From Gemmatimonadota bacterium (GTDB taxonomy: Bacteria; Gemmatimonadota; Gemmatimonadetes; Gemmatimonadales; Gemmatimonadaceae): a stretch of DNA of 64,000 nt. The notes under the pieces were generated by a model, which saw only the letters and a program-made list of their open reading frames with translations, searched no databases and was not told where the DNA came from. The stretch spans positions 62,001 to 126,000 of the forward strand of contig JAPLKU010000003.1 in assembly GCA_026387935.1 (NCBI GenBank), written 5' to 3'. Each line of letters begins with the position of its first letter. The first letter of the stretch is position 1. This document shows, in pieces, positions 35,290-41,567 of this stretch. A program made the position numbers and the translations under genes.

Positions 35290-35371
35290 CCGGCTTGGCC
35301 AGCGTGCCGGACGTGGCGGACGACCGTCGCGGATGCGAGATTCTGAGAACTCTCCTTCCCCAACACTCCGT

Positions 35372-37888
35372 ATGCGATTTGTCATCGTCGTCGCCGCAGT
35401 AGCGACCTCACTCGGCGCCCAGAACCCCACACCACCCGCTGCCGGTGCGCCCGCCGCACAGCCGCCCGCCGCCGGTCAGGGCGCCGGTCGCGGCAATGCC
35501 CAGGCCGCCGGTCCCCGACCCTACAACACGGTCATCACCGACCGCGCGAAGTCCGAGAACGGGATCATCACCGTCCACAAGGTCGGCGACCGGTTCTTCT
35601 TCGAGGTTCCCGACTCCGCGTCGAAGCGCGAGTTCCTCTTCGTCACGCGCACCGCGACCCTCCCTGAGGGCCAGACCGGCGGGTTCGCCGGCAGCTCGAA
35701 GGAAGAGCGCGTCGTTCGCTTCGAGCGCATCGGCGACCGCGTGATCATGAAGAGCCAGAGTTATCTGGCCGTAGCAGATGACTCTCTTCCAATAGCAAAG
35801 GCCGTCGAGCGGGCCAACTATACGCCCGTGCTCGCGTCATTCCCGGTGCAGGCGTATGGCCGCGACAGCGCCTTTGTCATTGATGTCACCGACTTCTTCG
35901 CCGGCGACACGCCGGGCATCTCGGGCATGAGCGCCGCCGAGCGCCGCACCTACGGCGTCCGCCGCCTGGACCCCGCGCGCAGCTGGATCAGCGGCATTCG
36001 GGCCTTCCCGACCAACATCGAAGTGCGGCATGTGCAAACGTTCGACGCCGCCGATCCGCCGGGCGAGGATAAGACCGGCAGCACCATCTCCATCGAGATG
36101 CGCCAGTCGATGCTGCTGCTCCCCAAGACCCCGATGCGCCCGCGGTATGCCGACGAGCGCGTCGGCATCTTCACCGTGGGACGCGTCAACTATGGCCTCG
36201 ACGAGCTGAAGGCCGCCGACCAGCGGTTCCTCGTGCGCTGGAGACTCGAGCCGAAGGATCCCACGGCGTACGCGCGCGGCGAGCTCGTCGAGCCGGTGAA
36301 GCCCATCATCTACTATCTCGACCCCGCCACGCCCACACGCTGGGCGCCCTACGTGAAGGAAGGCGTGGAGCGCTGGCAAAAGGTGTTCGAGAAGGCGGGC
36401 TTCAAGAACGCCATTCAGGCGCGATACGCGCCCAAGAACGATCCCGACTTCGATCCCGATGATGCGCGCTACTCCATGGTGCGCTGGGCGGCCTCGCTCA
36501 CGCGCAACGCCGTGGGTCCGAACACGCACGACCCGCGCACCGGCGAGATCCTCAACAGCGAAATCAACTGGTACCACAACCACATGCGGTCATACCGCAA
36601 CTGGCTGATGATGGAGACTGGCGCGTCGAACCCTGGCGCCCGCTCGCTCGACATCAGCGAGGAAGTGATCGGCGAGACGATGCGCGGCGTCATCACGCAC
36701 GAAATCGGCCACGCACTCGGCCTGCCGCACAACATGATCGCGTCGGCGTCGATCCCCGTGGATTCGCTGCGTTCCAAGGCGTTCGCGAGCAAGTACGGCG
36801 TCTCACTCACGATCATGGACTACGCGCGGCAGAACTATGTCGCGCAGCCCACGGATGGCCTTGCCCCGCTCGACTTCATCCGTCGCATCGGACCCTTCGA
36901 TGACTTCGTCATCAACTGGGGCTATCGCGTGTTCCCGACTGCGCGCACGCCAGAGGCCGAGCGGCCTATCCTCAACAAGCTCGTCACCGACGAAAAGGGG
37001 ATGTTCGCGTACCGTTTCGGCGCGGGCAACTACACGGGCATCGATCCGCGGAACCAGACGGAAGACCTGGGCGACGATCCGGTGAAGGCGTCGACGTACG
37101 GCACCATGAACATGAAGAAGGTCGTGTCGAACCTCGTCGCCTGGACCACGAAGCCCGGCGAGGACTATTCAGATCTCGAGGAGCTGTACAACGAGCTGAT
37201 CGCCCGCTGGTCGCTCTATTACGGCCACGTGACCAACGTCGTCGGCGGCGTCTATGTCGACAACAAGACCGCCGAACAGGGTGGCAACGTGTATCGAATC
37301 GTGCCCAAGGCGAAGCAGAAGGCCGCACTCAACTGGCTTGGCGAGAACATTATCGCCGAGCCCAAGTGGCTGCTGCCGCAGGATATTCTGTCGCGACTTG
37401 GCCAGCCGCAGCAGAGCCTTGCGACCCGCGCCGGCGGCGTGGTGACGAACCTGCTGAGCAACGCGCGCCTCGGCCGGATGGCGGAAGCCGAAACGTTCGA
37501 TCCGGCAAACGCCTACCCGCTCGCCGAGTACATGGATGACGTGCGCGCAGTGGTGTGGACGAGTGCCGCGCCGGACGCCCACCGGCGGTCGGTGCAGCGC
37601 GCGCACATCGAGCGGCTCGCGCAGATCATCAACCCGCCGCCGCCTGCCGCTCCCGGGGCGGGTGGTCGTGGCGGCGGTGGTGGCGGTCGCGGCGGAGGAC
37701 CGCCGGCGCCATTCACCGATGCGCCAAACGTCCCGCGCAGCGACCTCCCGGCCTTGGCTCGTGCGGAGCTCCGCGCGATTCAGGCGCTCTCGCGGATGCG
37801 CGGCGCTACAGCAACCGGTGCAGTGGCCAAGGCGCATTACGCCGATGTGGTTGATCGTGTGACGACGGTACTCGAACCGAGACGGTAG
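35372..37888 (+). CDS. Exported zinc-dependent metalloprotease (DUF5117/DUF4953 type)
   Basis: An 838-residue exported protein. ATG 35372 is preferred over 35333 because it gives a clean signal peptide (RFVIVVAAVATSLGAQ). The N-terminal half matches the DUF5117-like region (GDRFFFEVPDSASKREFLFV, SQSYLAVADDSLP, IEMRQSMLLLP). The catalytic site is an extended zinc motif, HEIGHALGLPHN, starting at His443, resembling metzincins. The C-terminal DUF4953-like part includes YSDLEELYNELIARWSLYYG. Two Gly-rich tracts occur: Ala/Gly/Pro-rich after the signal peptide (about 35435-35520) and GGRGGGGGGRGGG at about 37660-37705. It follows the S9 peptidase by about 80 bases. Confidence 0.9.
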   Translation: MRFVIVVAAVATSLGAQNPTPPAAGAPAAQPPAAGQGAGRGNAQAAGPRPYNTVITDRAKSENGIITVHKVGDRFFFEVPDSASKREFLFVTRTATLPEGQTGGFAGSSKEERVVRFERIGDRVIMKSQSYLAVADDSLPIAKAVERANYTPVLASFPVQAYGRDSAFVIDVTDFFAGDTPGISGMSAAERRTYGVRRLDPARSWISGIRAFPTNIEVRHVQTFDAADPPGEDKTGSTISIEMRQSMLLLPKTPMRPRYADERVGIFTVGRVNYGLDELKAADQRFLVRWRLEPKDPTAYARGELVEPVKPIIYYLDPATPTRWAPYVKEGVERWQKVFEKAGFKNAIQARYAPKNDPDFDPDDARYSMVRWAASLTRNAVGPNTHDPRTGEILNSEINWYHNHMRSYRNWLMMETGASNPGARSLDISEEVIGETMRGVITHEIGHALGLPHNMIASASIPVDSLRSKAFASKYGVSLTIMDYARQNYVAQPTDGLAPLDFIRRIGPFDDFVINWGYRVFPTARTPEAERPILNKLVTDEKGMFAYRFGAGNYTGIDPRNQTEDLGDDPVKASTYGTMNMKKVVSNLVAWTTKPGEDYSDLEELYNELIARWSLYYGHVTNVVGGVYVDNKTAEQGGNVYRIVPKAKQKAALNWLGENIIAEPKWLLPQDILSRLGQPQQSLATRAGGVVTNLLSNARLGRMAEAETFDPANAYPLAEYMDDVRAVVWTSAAPDAHRRSVQRAHIERLAQIINPPPPAAPGAGGRGGGGGGRGGGPPAPFTDAPNVPRSDLPALARAELRAIQALSRMRGATATGAVAKAHYADVVDRVTTVLEPRR

Positions 37889-37915
37889 CGCGGCGAGCAG
37901 CGCACTAGCGCCGCG
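37889..37915. terminator. Hairpin at the junction of convergent genes
   Basis: CGCGGCG at 37889-37895 pairs with its complement at 37909-37915 immediately after the metalloprotease stop and overlapping the stop of the convergent lipoprotein gene. There is no T run, so terminator function is tentative. Confidence 0.35.
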
Positions 37916-38945
37916 GAAACACCGCGATCACAGGGCAGTTGATCACGACACCGGGTCGGGGTTCCGCAACAAGGAATCCCGACCCGGTGAGCGTTTGGGC
38001 CTGTTGCCACGAAAAGAGTTTCGTGCGCTGATTGCCCGTGACCGCGCCCGCGCTCCAGTGCGTGAGATTCAATTCCCACGCCGGCGAGTAGATCGGATTC
38101 TTGCCGCTCACATCAGGCGCATGCTCGAGCACATTCAGCGGCGCACGATCATCCACGAGCGCCGACCGAAGTCCCTGCCGCGCGGGATTGTCGAGTCCCG
38201 TTTCGCCATTCGTCACGGCGAGAATCCCGGTGCGCGCAGAACCAGTCGCCCCCGTCTTCCCTTCTCCCGGCGCCGCACGCATCGCCGGCGCGAACGTCGC
38301 GCGCTCCATCGCCGCGACGACCTCGTCTGACGCGTCGGTGGACGTGTACCAGACGGCCTGGCCGTTCCAGTAGCCGCGGGAGATTCGCAGCCGCACGGTG
38401 CCCGTTGTCGGGTCGAGCCGCTCCACGCGATCGAGCGCCGCGCGTTCGTCGGCAACAATCGGTGCGTTGATCACGATGCCGTTGTCGAGTACCACGAATG
38501 GCGAGTAGAACGGATCGGCCATCGACCCCGGCGATGCCACTGACGGTGGAAATCCGCTCTCCGGATTCGCCACGACACTCCGCGTCGGCGTAAAATCCAC
38601 GCCCGCATCGAACGTCAGCAGCCCGCGCGATTCGTGCGCGCGCTGCGATGCCGCCGTGCCCGCCATCGCCTTGAGGCGCGGGGCCCAGGTCACGCCGCGC
38701 CGCGCCGCATCGGCGCGATCGGACGATTCAGTGACGATGTACCACACCGTCTTGCTCCCCACGAGTCCCTGGTACACCGGCAGCGTCGCGAATCCACCGA
38801 TCGTGCCGATCGCGGTCGCCGAGGCCATTCGATAGGCCGGGTTGGCGCCACCCGCCCGAATCGTCGCGCACCCGACGACGAGTAGCGCGGCTAAGGCCGC
38901 GGCCAGCGGCGCGGCAAATCGACGTACGGCGTGCGGCCTCAACAC
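37905..38945 (-). CDS. Lipoprotein built of two related modules, unknown function
   Basis: A 346-residue exported protein with a lipobox (AALAALLVVGC). It is internally duplicated: SKTVWYIVTESSDRADAARR followed by GVTWAPRL recurs as GQAVWYTSTDASDEVVAAME followed by RATFAPAM. PFYSPFVVLDNGIVINAPIV matches PIYSPAWELNLTHW with PGVVINCPVIA at the end. I do not recognise a named function. It begins 21 bases after the RnfD/NqrB-like gene on the same strand, so it probably belongs to that flavin electron-transfer operon. There it may be a surface or periplasmic partner (inference from position only). Confidence 0.75.
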   Translation of the reverse strand: MLRPHAVRRFAAPLAAALAALLVVGCATIRAGGANPAYRMASATAIGTIGGFATLPVYQGLVGSKTVWYIVTESSDRADAARRGVTWAPRLKAMAGTAASQRAHESRGLLTFDAGVDFTPTRSVVANPESGFPPSVASPGSMADPFYSPFVVLDNGIVINAPIVADERAALDRVERLDPTTGTVRLRISRGYWNGQAVWYTSTDASDEVVAAMERATFAPAMRAAPGEGKTGATGSARTGILAVTNGETGLDNPARQGLRSALVDDRAPLNVLEHAPDVSGKNPIYSPAWELNLTHWSAGAVTGNQRTKLFSWQQAQTLTGSGFLVAEPRPGVVINCPVIAVFPRR

Positions 38946-38966
38946 TCAGGCGTATTCGTCAGCGAC

Positions 38967-39797
38967 CTACAGGGATGCTGCGGCGGCGCGGCGGCGCGCC
39001 AGCTTCTTCGTCCGGTATCGGCGAATCGCCTCCCACACGTTGCCCGCAAGCAACCCGGCGAGCAGGAAGTAGGCCGCGCCAATGAACTCAAACGCTGCAT
39101 AGCTGACCACGGCAACGATGACCCCGTTGATCAGTTGGTCGCGGTGCTTCGGCGGCGACGTGGGCGGATCGGTCACCATGAAGAACGCGAAGTAGAGTGC
39201 CGCGTTCAGATCGGGCACGCGATACAGCTCGGCGACCCGAGCCGGTTGCCCGAAAAATGCCGTCGCCGTCACCAACAGGTAGTACGTCCCGAGGAACGAC
39301 AGCACGAGAGGCGTCTTGTTCACGCGGTCCGTGATAAAGATGCCGGTCGCGAGCAGCACAACGAGTGCGAGCGGTGGCGCCTCGGGCAGAGAGCCCCACC
39401 AGCTGTGCCCTGTGTCAAACAGGTAGAAGGTGATCACCAGCGCGAGCGCCGCCGGGTTGAACACATTCGCCTTCCCAACGCGCAGCAGATACTTGCTCGC
39501 GACTGCGATGGCCGACGTCACGGCGGCAATCCACCACGCTTCGTGTGGACTCAGGATCATCGCGACAATCAGGCCCGTCAGCAGCGCGCCATCGGGAAAG
39601 ACCCACTCGCCCTCGCGCCAGCGCAGAATCGGCGCATCCACGAGCATCGCAGCGAGCACGCCACCGGCGAGGCCGGGCGCGGCAAGCCGCAGCCCTTCGC
39701 TCCACACAGCAACAACCGTCACGGCCGCCATCAGTGCGATGAGCAGACCCTTTGGCGTGCGGAAAAACTGTTTAGCCGCGGTGAGTGTCGGCGCCAT
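38967..39797 (-). CDS. RnfD/NqrB-like membrane protein without a visible flavinylation motif
   Basis: A 276-residue polytopic membrane protein of the RnfD/NqrB family. ATG 39797 is used; it overlaps the apbE end by 26 bases. Typical segments are VFPDGALLTGLIVAMILSPH, KANVFNPAALALVITFYLF, NAALYFAFFMVTDPPTSPP and GAAYFLLAGLLAGNVWEAIR. In RnfD and NqrB proper a Thr in an SGAT-like motif carries covalent FMN; here that region reads FDTGHSWWGSLP, with no such motif. So it probably passes electrons with a non-covalent flavin or channels them to the FMN-binding partner. No other rnf or nqr genes are nearby. Confidence 0.82.
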   Translation of the reverse strand: MAPTLTAAKQFFRTPKGLLIALMAAVTVVAVWSEGLRLAAPGLAGGVLAAMLVDAPILRWREGEWVFPDGALLTGLIVAMILSPHEAWWIAAVTSAIAVASKYLLRVGKANVFNPAALALVITFYLFDTGHSWWGSLPEAPPLALVVLLATGIFITDRVNKTPLVLSFLGTYYLLVTATAFFGQPARVAELYRVPDLNAALYFAFFMVTDPPTSPPKHRDQLINGVIVAVVSYAAFEFIGAAYFLLAGLLAGNVWEAIRRYRTKKLARRRAAAASL

Positions 39798-40728
39798 GTG
39801 GAATTGCGGTGTCGGCCGCGAAGCCGGCGGTGGCAAAGCGTTCGAGCGCCGGCGAGTACAACACACCGGCAACGCCGTGCGCTTCGAGAAACTTCATTCC
39901 GGCCTGCGGACCGAGTACGAACGCCGCCGTGGCCAACGCATCCGCCACCATGGCGTGCGGCGCGATCACCGTCGCGCTCGCGAGCAGGCGAGCGCTGCGG
40001 CCTACGCGCGCGTCCATGATGTGGTGGCCACCGTCCGTGGCCACACCGGCGCGCTCGTAGTCTCCGGACGTGCACACGGCGACATTCGACACGCTGATCG
40101 TCTCAAGGAGTTCGTTCGCGGCGCGCGGATGGCGAACGCCGACGCTCCACGGTTCGCCGTCGGCATTGTTCCCACCGAGGAACACGTCGCCTCCGGCGTC
40201 GATTGCGAAGTCGCCGAGAGGCCCGAGTTCGCGCGCGGCGAGGTCCATCGCCAGTCCCTTTGCGACCGCGCCAAGATCGAGCGTGAGCGGACGCGCGATA
40301 GTCACGGTGCGAGCCTCGCTGTCGAGTTCCAGATCGCGGTACGATGCGCCTGCGGGCGTGGCCACCGGAGAGTTCGCCACTGCGCCGGTACGATGTTCAC
40401 GATTGAATCCGCGCGCCTCCATCATGGCGCCAATGGTCGGATCAAAGGCGCCCTCGGTGTCCTGCGCAACGGCGAGCGCAAACCGAATCGGCTCGAAAAG
40501 CATTTCGCTCACGGGGACGGGCTCGCCGACCGTCGCGCAGAGCCGGCGGAGTTCGCTCCGGCTATCGAACCGGGAGCACGTCGCCTCTACCTGCGCGAAC
40601 CACTTCAAGGCGCGTACCACGGTGGCTTCACGTTCATCGCGCTCCGGCTGGTTCGTTCCGCGCCCGACTACCTGAACGGTGACCACCGTGCCCATCATCG
40701 GGACGGTGCGCAGGAGCAGGTCGTTCAC
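39772..40728 (-). CDS. apbE: FAD:protein FMN transferase (ApbE)
   Basis: A 318-residue enzyme that attaches FMN from FAD to a Thr in SGAT-type motifs of target proteins. GTG 40728 is chosen: it overlaps the upstream TGA (GTGA at 40725-40728), and upstream sequence in this frame lies antiparallel to no real homology. Family motifs are MMGTVVTVQVV near the N-terminus, LTLDLGAVAKGLAMDLAA, FAIDAGGDVFLGG, the metal-site region HHIMDARVG and ATVIAPHAMVADALATAAFV. There is no signal peptide or lipobox, so modification would occur in the cytoplasm unless the start is wrong. The gene sits between its likely target and the RnfD/NqrB-like gene. Confidence 0.92.
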   Translation of the reverse strand: MNDLLLRTVPMMGTVVTVQVVGRGTNQPERDEREATVVRALKWFAQVEATCSRFDSRSELRRLCATVGEPVPVSEMLFEPIRFALAVAQDTEGAFDPTIGAMMEARGFNREHRTGAVANSPVATPAGASYRDLELDSEARTVTIARPLTLDLGAVAKGLAMDLAARELGPLGDFAIDAGGDVFLGGNNADGEPWSVGVRHPRAANELLETISVSNVAVCTSGDYERAGVATDGGHHIMDARVGRSARLLASATVIAPHAMVADALATAAFVLGPQAGMKFLEAHGVAGVLYSPALERFATAGFAADTAIPHGADTHRG

Positions 40729-41567
40729 TTCGCGCGATTGAGTGCTTCGAGGACCGCGTAGTAAAACGCGTTCGTACTCTGAGTCGCACCCGACACGTAG
40801 TCGACTTCGGGACTCTGGCGGCCAATCACCTGCGGAGGCAGCGCCGCGATCCACGAACAGGAATAGCGCGTCAGGCACTGCGAAATCATCGCGTTGGCAA
40901 TCCGTCCACCCTGGATCACCACGGCAGCCTGAATGTCGCCATGACGGGACGTGCCCCATCCATAGTAGGTGCCGTCCTTCCACTTGGGCGCAGGCGGATC
41001 GGCCGAGTGCGCCGCCTCGGCGCTCGGTTTCGCCGCCGGCACCGAGGCCATCGAGTGCTGCGGACCGGGAGCGGGTGCGGGAGTCGGTGCAGGAGCCGGC
41101 GCAGGGGTCGGCGCTGGTGCTGGAGTTGACGCAACGGTCGGCGCCGCTGCCGCGACAGTGGTGACGGAGTCCGACACTACAGGAACGGTTGCTGTCGGCG
41201 TGATCACGGACAGGGTCAGCGCACCGCGCGGCGTTAGCGACGGCGCGTCCTCGGCAGACTCCGATTCGGGCTTCGCCGGCTTGGCGTTTGCAACCCGCGC
41301 GAGCGACGGCAACGTAGGCGACGCTGCAGCTGCTCCGGCCCGCATACGAACTTGCGACCCGGCCGGCTGGGTTGGAACAGCCTGCTCGACCGTCATTGCG
41401 CGCGGCGCCTCGCTCGGCGATGGCACAGGGCGGCGGCGCTGACCGGCATCGGCCTCGGCCGCGAAGAGGTCGGCCGCGGCCTTCGTCTTGAACCAGCCTG
41501 CGGCATAGACTCCGATAACAGCAGCGGAGCCGAGTGCCATCAAGCTGGTTTTGTTGTCAGCGGCCAC
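40725..41567 (-). CDS. Exported/anchored FMN-binding domain protein with Pro/Ala linker
   Basis: A 280-residue protein with an N-terminal membrane anchor (SLMALGSAAVIGVYAAGWF). A long disordered region follows, including a pure Ala/Pro/Thr linker at about 150-175 (STPAPAPTPAPAPAPTPAPA), and then a C-terminal FMN-binding domain of about 90 residues (KWKDGTYYGWGTSRHGDIQA). The flavinylation motif is SGATQST with Thr262 as predicted FMN attachment site (codon at 40782-40784). Two Cys in SQCLTRYSCSW precede it and could form a disulfide. It is first in the operon with apbE and the RnfD/NqrB-like gene, which makes it the obvious ApbE substrate and an electron carrier outside the membrane. Confidence 0.88.
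   Translation of the reverse strand: MAADNKTSLMALGSAAVIGVYAAGWFKTKAAADLFAAEADAGQRRRPVPSPSEAPRAMTVEQAVPTQPAGSQVRMRAGAAAASPTLPSLARVANAKPAKPESESAEDAPSLTPRGALTLSVITPTATVPVVSDSVTTVAAAAPTVASTPAPAPTPAPAPAPTPAPAPGPQHSMASVPAAKPSAEAAHSADPPAPKWKDGTYYGWGTSRHGDIQAAVVIQGGRIANAMISQCLTRYSCSWIAALPPQVIGRQSPEVDYVSGATQSTNAFYYAVLEALNRAK

Follow-up and report, generated by a model that had tools for sequence, protein, structure and literature searches.

A conserved FMN-binding, ApbE and RnfD-like gene trio in Gemmatimonadota as a candidate minimal transmembrane flavin relay

Composition of the locus and spread of the trio

The window analysed here, a stretch of 64,000 nucleotides from a Gemmatimonadota bacterium, belongs to a genome of 2.8 Mb that is 95% complete. 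Four minus-strand open reading frames lie at 37905-41567 of the window, separated by overlaps or by a gap of 21 bases. All four had been described in a sequence-only reading of the same DNA, and all are present, with slightly corrected start sites. The first gene (40725..41567, minus strand) encodes FMNB, a protein of 280 aa made up of an N-terminal membrane anchor, an Ala/Pro-rich linker and a C-terminal FMN-binding domain (PF04205, 25 bits against a cut-off of 22). The second (39772..40728, minus strand) encodes an ApbE flavin transferase (318 aa; PF02424, 204.6 bits, cut-off 25.6), whose GTG start at 40728 falls within the FMNB stop, giving an overlap of 4 nt. The third (38967..39797, minus strand) encodes an RnfD/NqrB-like integral membrane protein (276 aa; PF03116, 63.6 bits, cut-off 27.7) and begins with an ATG at 39797 inside the end of apbE, an overlap of 26 nt. 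The fourth gene (37905..38945, minus strand), 21 bases 3′ of the third, encodes a lipoprotein of 346 aa with the lipobox LVVGC and a match to DUF7482 (PF24298, 33.8 bits). A large Met-zincin metallopeptidase gene (DUF4953/DUF5117/DUF5118) at 35333-37888 is convergent with the operon and is syntenic in the closest relative. A whole-genome search found one PF03116 protein, one ApbE and one FMN_bind protein.

The unit that is conserved consists of three genes. Among 86 distinct loci from several phyla, about 80 have an apbE gene next to that for the RnfD-like protein, and an FMN_bind protein (FMNB) is encoded nearby in 72 of the 86, the shortfalls being mostly contig ends or genes overlooked by the simple gene caller. 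The order across loci is FMNB-ApbE-RnfD, mostly with overlapping reading frames, and no fourth gene recurs up- or downstream in the 86 loci. The operon is thus FMNB-ApbE-RnfD-like, with the lipoprotein gene outside it.

Close orthologues of the RnfD-like protein (E < 1e-20) occur in 40 of 395 Gemmatimonadota genomes, or about 10%. When 84,980 species genomes were scanned, 109 relatives came up, a lower bound because the scan was pattern-based; the 80 that were kept come from Gemmatimonadota, Acidobacteriota, Opitutae, Nevskiaceae and another gammaproteobacterium, and Chloroflexota. The protein was found in 4 of 297 genomes of an Acidobacteriota sample and is therefore rare in that phylum. In the tree of RnfD-like proteins, sequences from one phylum mostly cluster together, and long branches lead to a form that is fused to an NAD-binding domain. 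The gammaproteobacterial copies nest within Acidobacteriota, which suggests that they were acquired by horizontal transfer. Two sequences from bins titled Candidatus Kuenenia stuttgartiensis (L108) and Bordetella parapertussis (L116) are placed in the Gemmatimonadota and Acidobacteriota groups, respectively, and these are probably mislabelled metagenome bins.

About 47 further genomes of the 395 contain distant RnfD-like matches. These matches, from roughly half of the positive Gemmatimonadota, were considered as copies of the module and rejected, since they belong to a different family, and in those checked an FG-GAP/ASPIC protein is either the neighbour or the fusion partner. In Gemmatimonadota and Chloroflexota, a second RnfD-like family (PF03116) whose members stand alone (L078:6800-7708, L079:6857-7729, L080:6731-7837 and L199:4335-5270) adjoins a CRTAC1-like FG-GAP/UnbV-ASPIC protein in 4/4 loci checked. 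Fused versions are found at L075:5033-8083 (to FG-GAP/UnbV-ASPIC) and L077:3105-4511 (to FG-GAP). Neither ApbE nor FMN_bind was detected at the loci of the second family, which together with its FG-GAP/ASPIC neighbour might form another undescribed membrane redox pair. A membrane protein of 529 aa at L202:3745-5331 shows the RnfD motifs FNP and DPSTSP but matches PF03116 only in part, and its C-terminal tail contains Cys.

The downstream lipoprotein gene

The sequence-only reading had described the lipoprotein as two related modules, and its halves are indeed related: their Smith-Waterman score is 84, compared with 31.9 +/- 5.6 (maximum 55) for 300 shuffles. A single-sequence structure model was useless (pLDDT 31.6). 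The same reading had made the lipoprotein the fourth member of the system and a possible terminal electron donor or acceptor site, and in this genome the gene is indeed co-directional with the trio and close behind it. The distribution of the lipoprotein, however, argues strongly against such a role. No profile match at E<=1 was found in 114 fetched other module loci (duplicates included), and no module genes are present at 10 other lipoprotein loci. Homologues occur in 11 of the 395 Gemmatimonadota genomes, and the lipoprotein and the module are found together only in the window's genome, a co-occurrence that is about the one expected by chance. In the nearest relative, whose RnfD-like protein is 77% identical, the same genes flank the locus on both sides, but only a short intergenic gap separates the trio from the metallopeptidase gene, and the lipoprotein gene is missing.

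The lipoprotein gene is hence an insertion, a passenger next to the module and not a member of it, and conservation at the other loci and in the closest relative rules the lipoprotein out as a general partner of the trio. A search for the four-gene order in relatives had been set in advance as a test of the four-gene system. The first three genes are conserved across phyla, but the lipoprotein is absent from the other module loci, and the four-gene system therefore fails by the test of the reading that proposed it; we regard it as barely credible. A lineage-specific recruitment of the lipoprotein, in the window's genome alone, is possible. The DUF7482 proteins, to which the lipoprotein belongs, have no relation to the flavin module: they also occur on plasmids of Deinococcus and in a methylotroph with no ApbE at the locus. 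The lipoprotein's homologues include proteins encoded on two Deinococcus plasmids and one Methylocalor plasmid, in one case next to a DM13-domain gene.

Predicted flavin sites and membrane topology

The FMN-binding domain of FMNB (residues 209-277; 40737..40943, minus strand) contains a conserved SRHGD motif, a CX5C pair (C231, C237) and an SGAT motif with T262. The predicted FMN attachment site, Thr262 (codon at 40782..40784, minus strand), had been recognized earlier within the sequence SGATQST, and it is invariant in one alignment (A2). The acceptor position is Thr, or rarely Ser, in 72/72 FMNBs. ApbE would be expected to attach FMN covalently to this residue. In the CX5C pair, C231 is conserved in 72/72 proteins and C237 in 67/72. 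As a guess, the pair could serve as a disulphide or a thiol relay.

The FMNB anchor (approximately residues 9-26; 41490..41543, minus strand) shows a charge bias between its flanks. The mean net charge is +2.66 on the N-terminal side versus -0.04 on the C-terminal side, and the N-terminal side is the higher in 48 of 50 homologues. By the positive-inside rule this places the N-terminus in the cytoplasm, and the FMN domain is therefore predicted to be periplasmic; anchor and leader calls here were made from hydropathy and charge, not SignalP.

ApbE presents a puzzle with regard to this topology. A hydrophobic leader, defined as a hydrophobic segment before the domain with a 12-residue mean of 2.0 or more, is found in 0/72 module ApbEs, compared with 9/20 other ApbEs of the same genomes by the same hydropathy measure. 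The module ApbE is the sole ApbE of the window's genome, and across 27 genomes it is the sole one in 9. Cytosolic ApbEs exist, and the reviewed cases modify cytosolic substrates (PMC12052999). One way to reconcile the two proteins would be a cytoplasmic FMN domain, with the module working wholly on the inner side of the membrane, and the lack of an ApbE leader at all 72 module loci agrees with this. On the other hand, the anchor charge bias points to N-in/C-out in 48/50 homologues, the Ala/Pro linker is periplasm-like and the Cys pair is conserved, so that we give a wholly cytoplasmic module only a slim chance. If the FMN domain is periplasmic, it would receive its FMN before export, unless the leaderless ApbE itself leaves the cytoplasm by another route. 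In the Opitutae-type genomes of L239, L240 and L241, extra ApbE paralogues also seem to have no leader, so the lack of a leader may be widespread among the ApbEs of this group.

The assignment of the third protein to the RnfD/NqrB family, made earlier from the letters, is upheld by structure prediction. An AlphaFold model built from 47 orthologues (pLDDT 90.9) matches RnfD (8rbq_D) with Z 24.6 and rmsd 4.9 over 259 residues, and NqrB (8a1x_B) with Z 22.9. Residues T74, N111, N114, A116 and D210 align with T162, N200, N203, A205 and D346 of NqrB, which touch riboflavin (PMC10643135), and D210 is also the counterpart of Asp248 of C. tetanomorphum RnfD, which lies at riboflavin (PMC9588780). The asparagines form part of an NVFN motif (39456..39467, minus strand). 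T74 is kept in 45/47 orthologues, and N111, N114, A116 and D210 (codon at 39168..39170, minus strand) in 47/47; F206, the counterpart of NqrB Phe342, varies (F in 34, I in 11 and V in 2 of the 47). A DPPT.P motif is invariant among the orthologues. From these residues, we infer a site for a non-covalent, riboflavin-type flavin.

The sequence-only reading had noted that the protein has no SGAT motif, and the covalent-FMN Thr site is in fact missing from all 47 orthologues (SGAT in 0/47), but it had overlooked that the whole flavinylation loop is deleted. In RnfD and NqrB the flavinylated Thr is borne by a linker of about 36 or more residues, and in RnfD this linker covers the FMN (PMC9588780). 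A profile search of the protein found no fused PF00175 NAD-binding domain, and in the model just one short helix (3-13) precedes TM1.

The fold also resembles urea and ammonium transporters (Z 10-12, far below RnfD/NqrB), a likeness that is expected for the RnfD/NqrB fold and is not taken as a function. Together with the retained flavin-site residues, it could be read to mean that the protein is a flavin or solute carrier serving FMNB maturation, and not an electron path. The Z scores to RnfD and NqrB (22-25) are twice as high, however, and the DPPT.P motif is invariant, as are most of the flavin ligands, which makes a carrier very unlikely.

Relation to RNF and NQR, and a possible electron path

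The other subunits of RNF and NQR, which the sequence-only reading had reported as lacking from the set, are missing more widely. Profile searches with PF02508 found no RnfA/E or NqrD/E over the cut-off in 27/27 module genomes, including the window's, and no second full PF03116 protein accompanies that of the module in any of the 26 genomes tested, a few of which have 1-2 weak partial matches; RnfB and RnfC are absent from the locus. These absences are provisional, because most of the genomes are drafts. A canonical RNF elsewhere in the window's genome was rejected by the PF03116 and PF02508 searches.

In comparison with RNF, the module shares an anchored FMN protein and the RnfD fold, as in RnfG/RnfD, with most riboflavin-site residues retained. 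It differs in that RnfA and RnfE are absent from the window's genome and RnfB and RnfC from the locus, that the five-helix linker with the flavinylated Thr is deleted, and that its FMN_bind domain is of a shorter type. Na+-NQR (NqrC/NqrB) is similar in the NqrB fold and in the counterparts of T162, N200, N203, A205 and D346, and its NqrB hands electrons to quinone. Unlike Na+-NQR, the window's system is without NqrD, NqrE, an NqrF-type NAD domain and the SGAT loop, and it has a shorter N-terminus. In NqrB, amphipathic helices at the N-terminus form the quinone site, and RnfD does not have them (PMC12174285); with its single short helix before TM1, the window's protein gives a point against a quinone step.

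The closest relative in gene order is the Nqr/Rnf-like flavinylated system, which is defined by a fused C-terminal PF00175 NAD-binding domain (Meheust et al. 2021, PMC8238504). It likewise combines a PF03116 membrane protein with clustered ApbE and FMN_bind genes. The Chloroflexota loci L191 and L196 correspond to the published form, with FMN_bind, a leaderless ApbE and an RnfD-like protein fused to PF00175, and at L192 the three genes recur, with a leaderless ApbE and a truncated third gene. All three loci share the order FMN_bind-ApbE-RnfD-like with the window's module, and the RnfD-like subunit of this system also has no covalent-FMN Thr. In contrast, the PF00175 domain is missing from the window's protein and undetected in its genome, the two groups of RnfD-like proteins are far apart (22% identity, long branches), and the FMN domains of L191, L192 and L196 do not have the CX5C pair. 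With the same trio order but no NAD domain, the window's module is therefore distantly related to the Nqr/Rnf-like system, as a sister form that lacks the NAD end. The earlier proposal of a flavin redox system is supported for FMNB, ApbE and the RnfD-like protein, but it had overlooked the leaderless ApbE and the missing NAD domain.

It might be supposed that the module is nevertheless a classic NAD(P)H-driven Nqr/Rnf-like system with its reductase domain supplied by a separate protein, and the gene order and leaderless ApbE of the Chloroflexota loci would fit. However, PF00175 was undetected in 6/9 module genomes tested (the window's and 5/8 others) by a search, for this family only, that was positive in 10/14 control genomes, and no neighbouring gene is conserved. 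An NAD domain in trans was hence rejected for the window's genome, where no separate PF00175 protein is detectable, and we consider this arrangement improbable.

We think it reasonably probable that the trio descends from the half of RNF/NQR that comprises RnfG and RnfD, and that it works on its own as a minimal flavin relay for electrons across the membrane. ApbE would attach FMN to Thr262 of FMNB, which, anchored in the inner membrane, would hold its FMN domain in the periplasm on the long Ala/Pro-rich linker. The RnfD-like protein would retain a buried, non-covalent riboflavin-type flavin. The loss of the loop in which RnfD keeps its covalent FMN bound and covered would leave a free pocket, and the tethered FMN of FMNB could dock there and thereby exchange electrons across the membrane; docking of a tethered FMN has been put forward for the NAD-fused relative (2024 follow-up, PMC10979944). 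The inner partner would most likely be the quinone pool, as in NqrB, since there is no fused NAD domain and no detectable PF00175 reductase in the genome. Taken alone, this quinone step, drawn by analogy, is more doubtful than the relay itself.

The direction of flow could also be inward, from a periplasmic reductant through the FMN of FMNB and the riboflavin of the RnfD-like protein to quinone, with the module acting as the NqrC/NqrB half of NQR and oxidizing something in the periplasm. The path in NQR runs from the FMN of NqrC through the NqrB flavins to quinone (PMC10643135, PMC12174285), and the residues along it are mostly retained. For the Nqr/Rnf-like system, however, the presumed direction is outward, starting at NAD(P)H (PMC8238504), and no gene for a periplasmic donor is linked to the trio; inward flow is for these reasons unlikely, though a serious contender. 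Similarly speculative is the fullest form of the relay, in which two proteins and a maturase would connect the quinone pool with an arm that spans the periplasm and bears both the covalent flavin and a CX5C thiol pair, with no NAD, iron-sulphur clusters or ion-pump partner, and with FMN attached in the cytoplasm before export.

Finally, we note what such a relay would mean. To place a system in this class, a large survey of flavinylated systems demanded either a fused NAD domain or the complete RNF/NQR set, and the trio would therefore fall between its categories. The leaderless ApbE raises the question of whether a protein can receive its covalent FMN in the cytoplasm and be exported afterwards. 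The trio would carry out the electron step of RnfG/RnfD with two subunits, and it could serve for the study of flavin-to-flavin transfer, and possibly of ion coupling, without the four other subunits.
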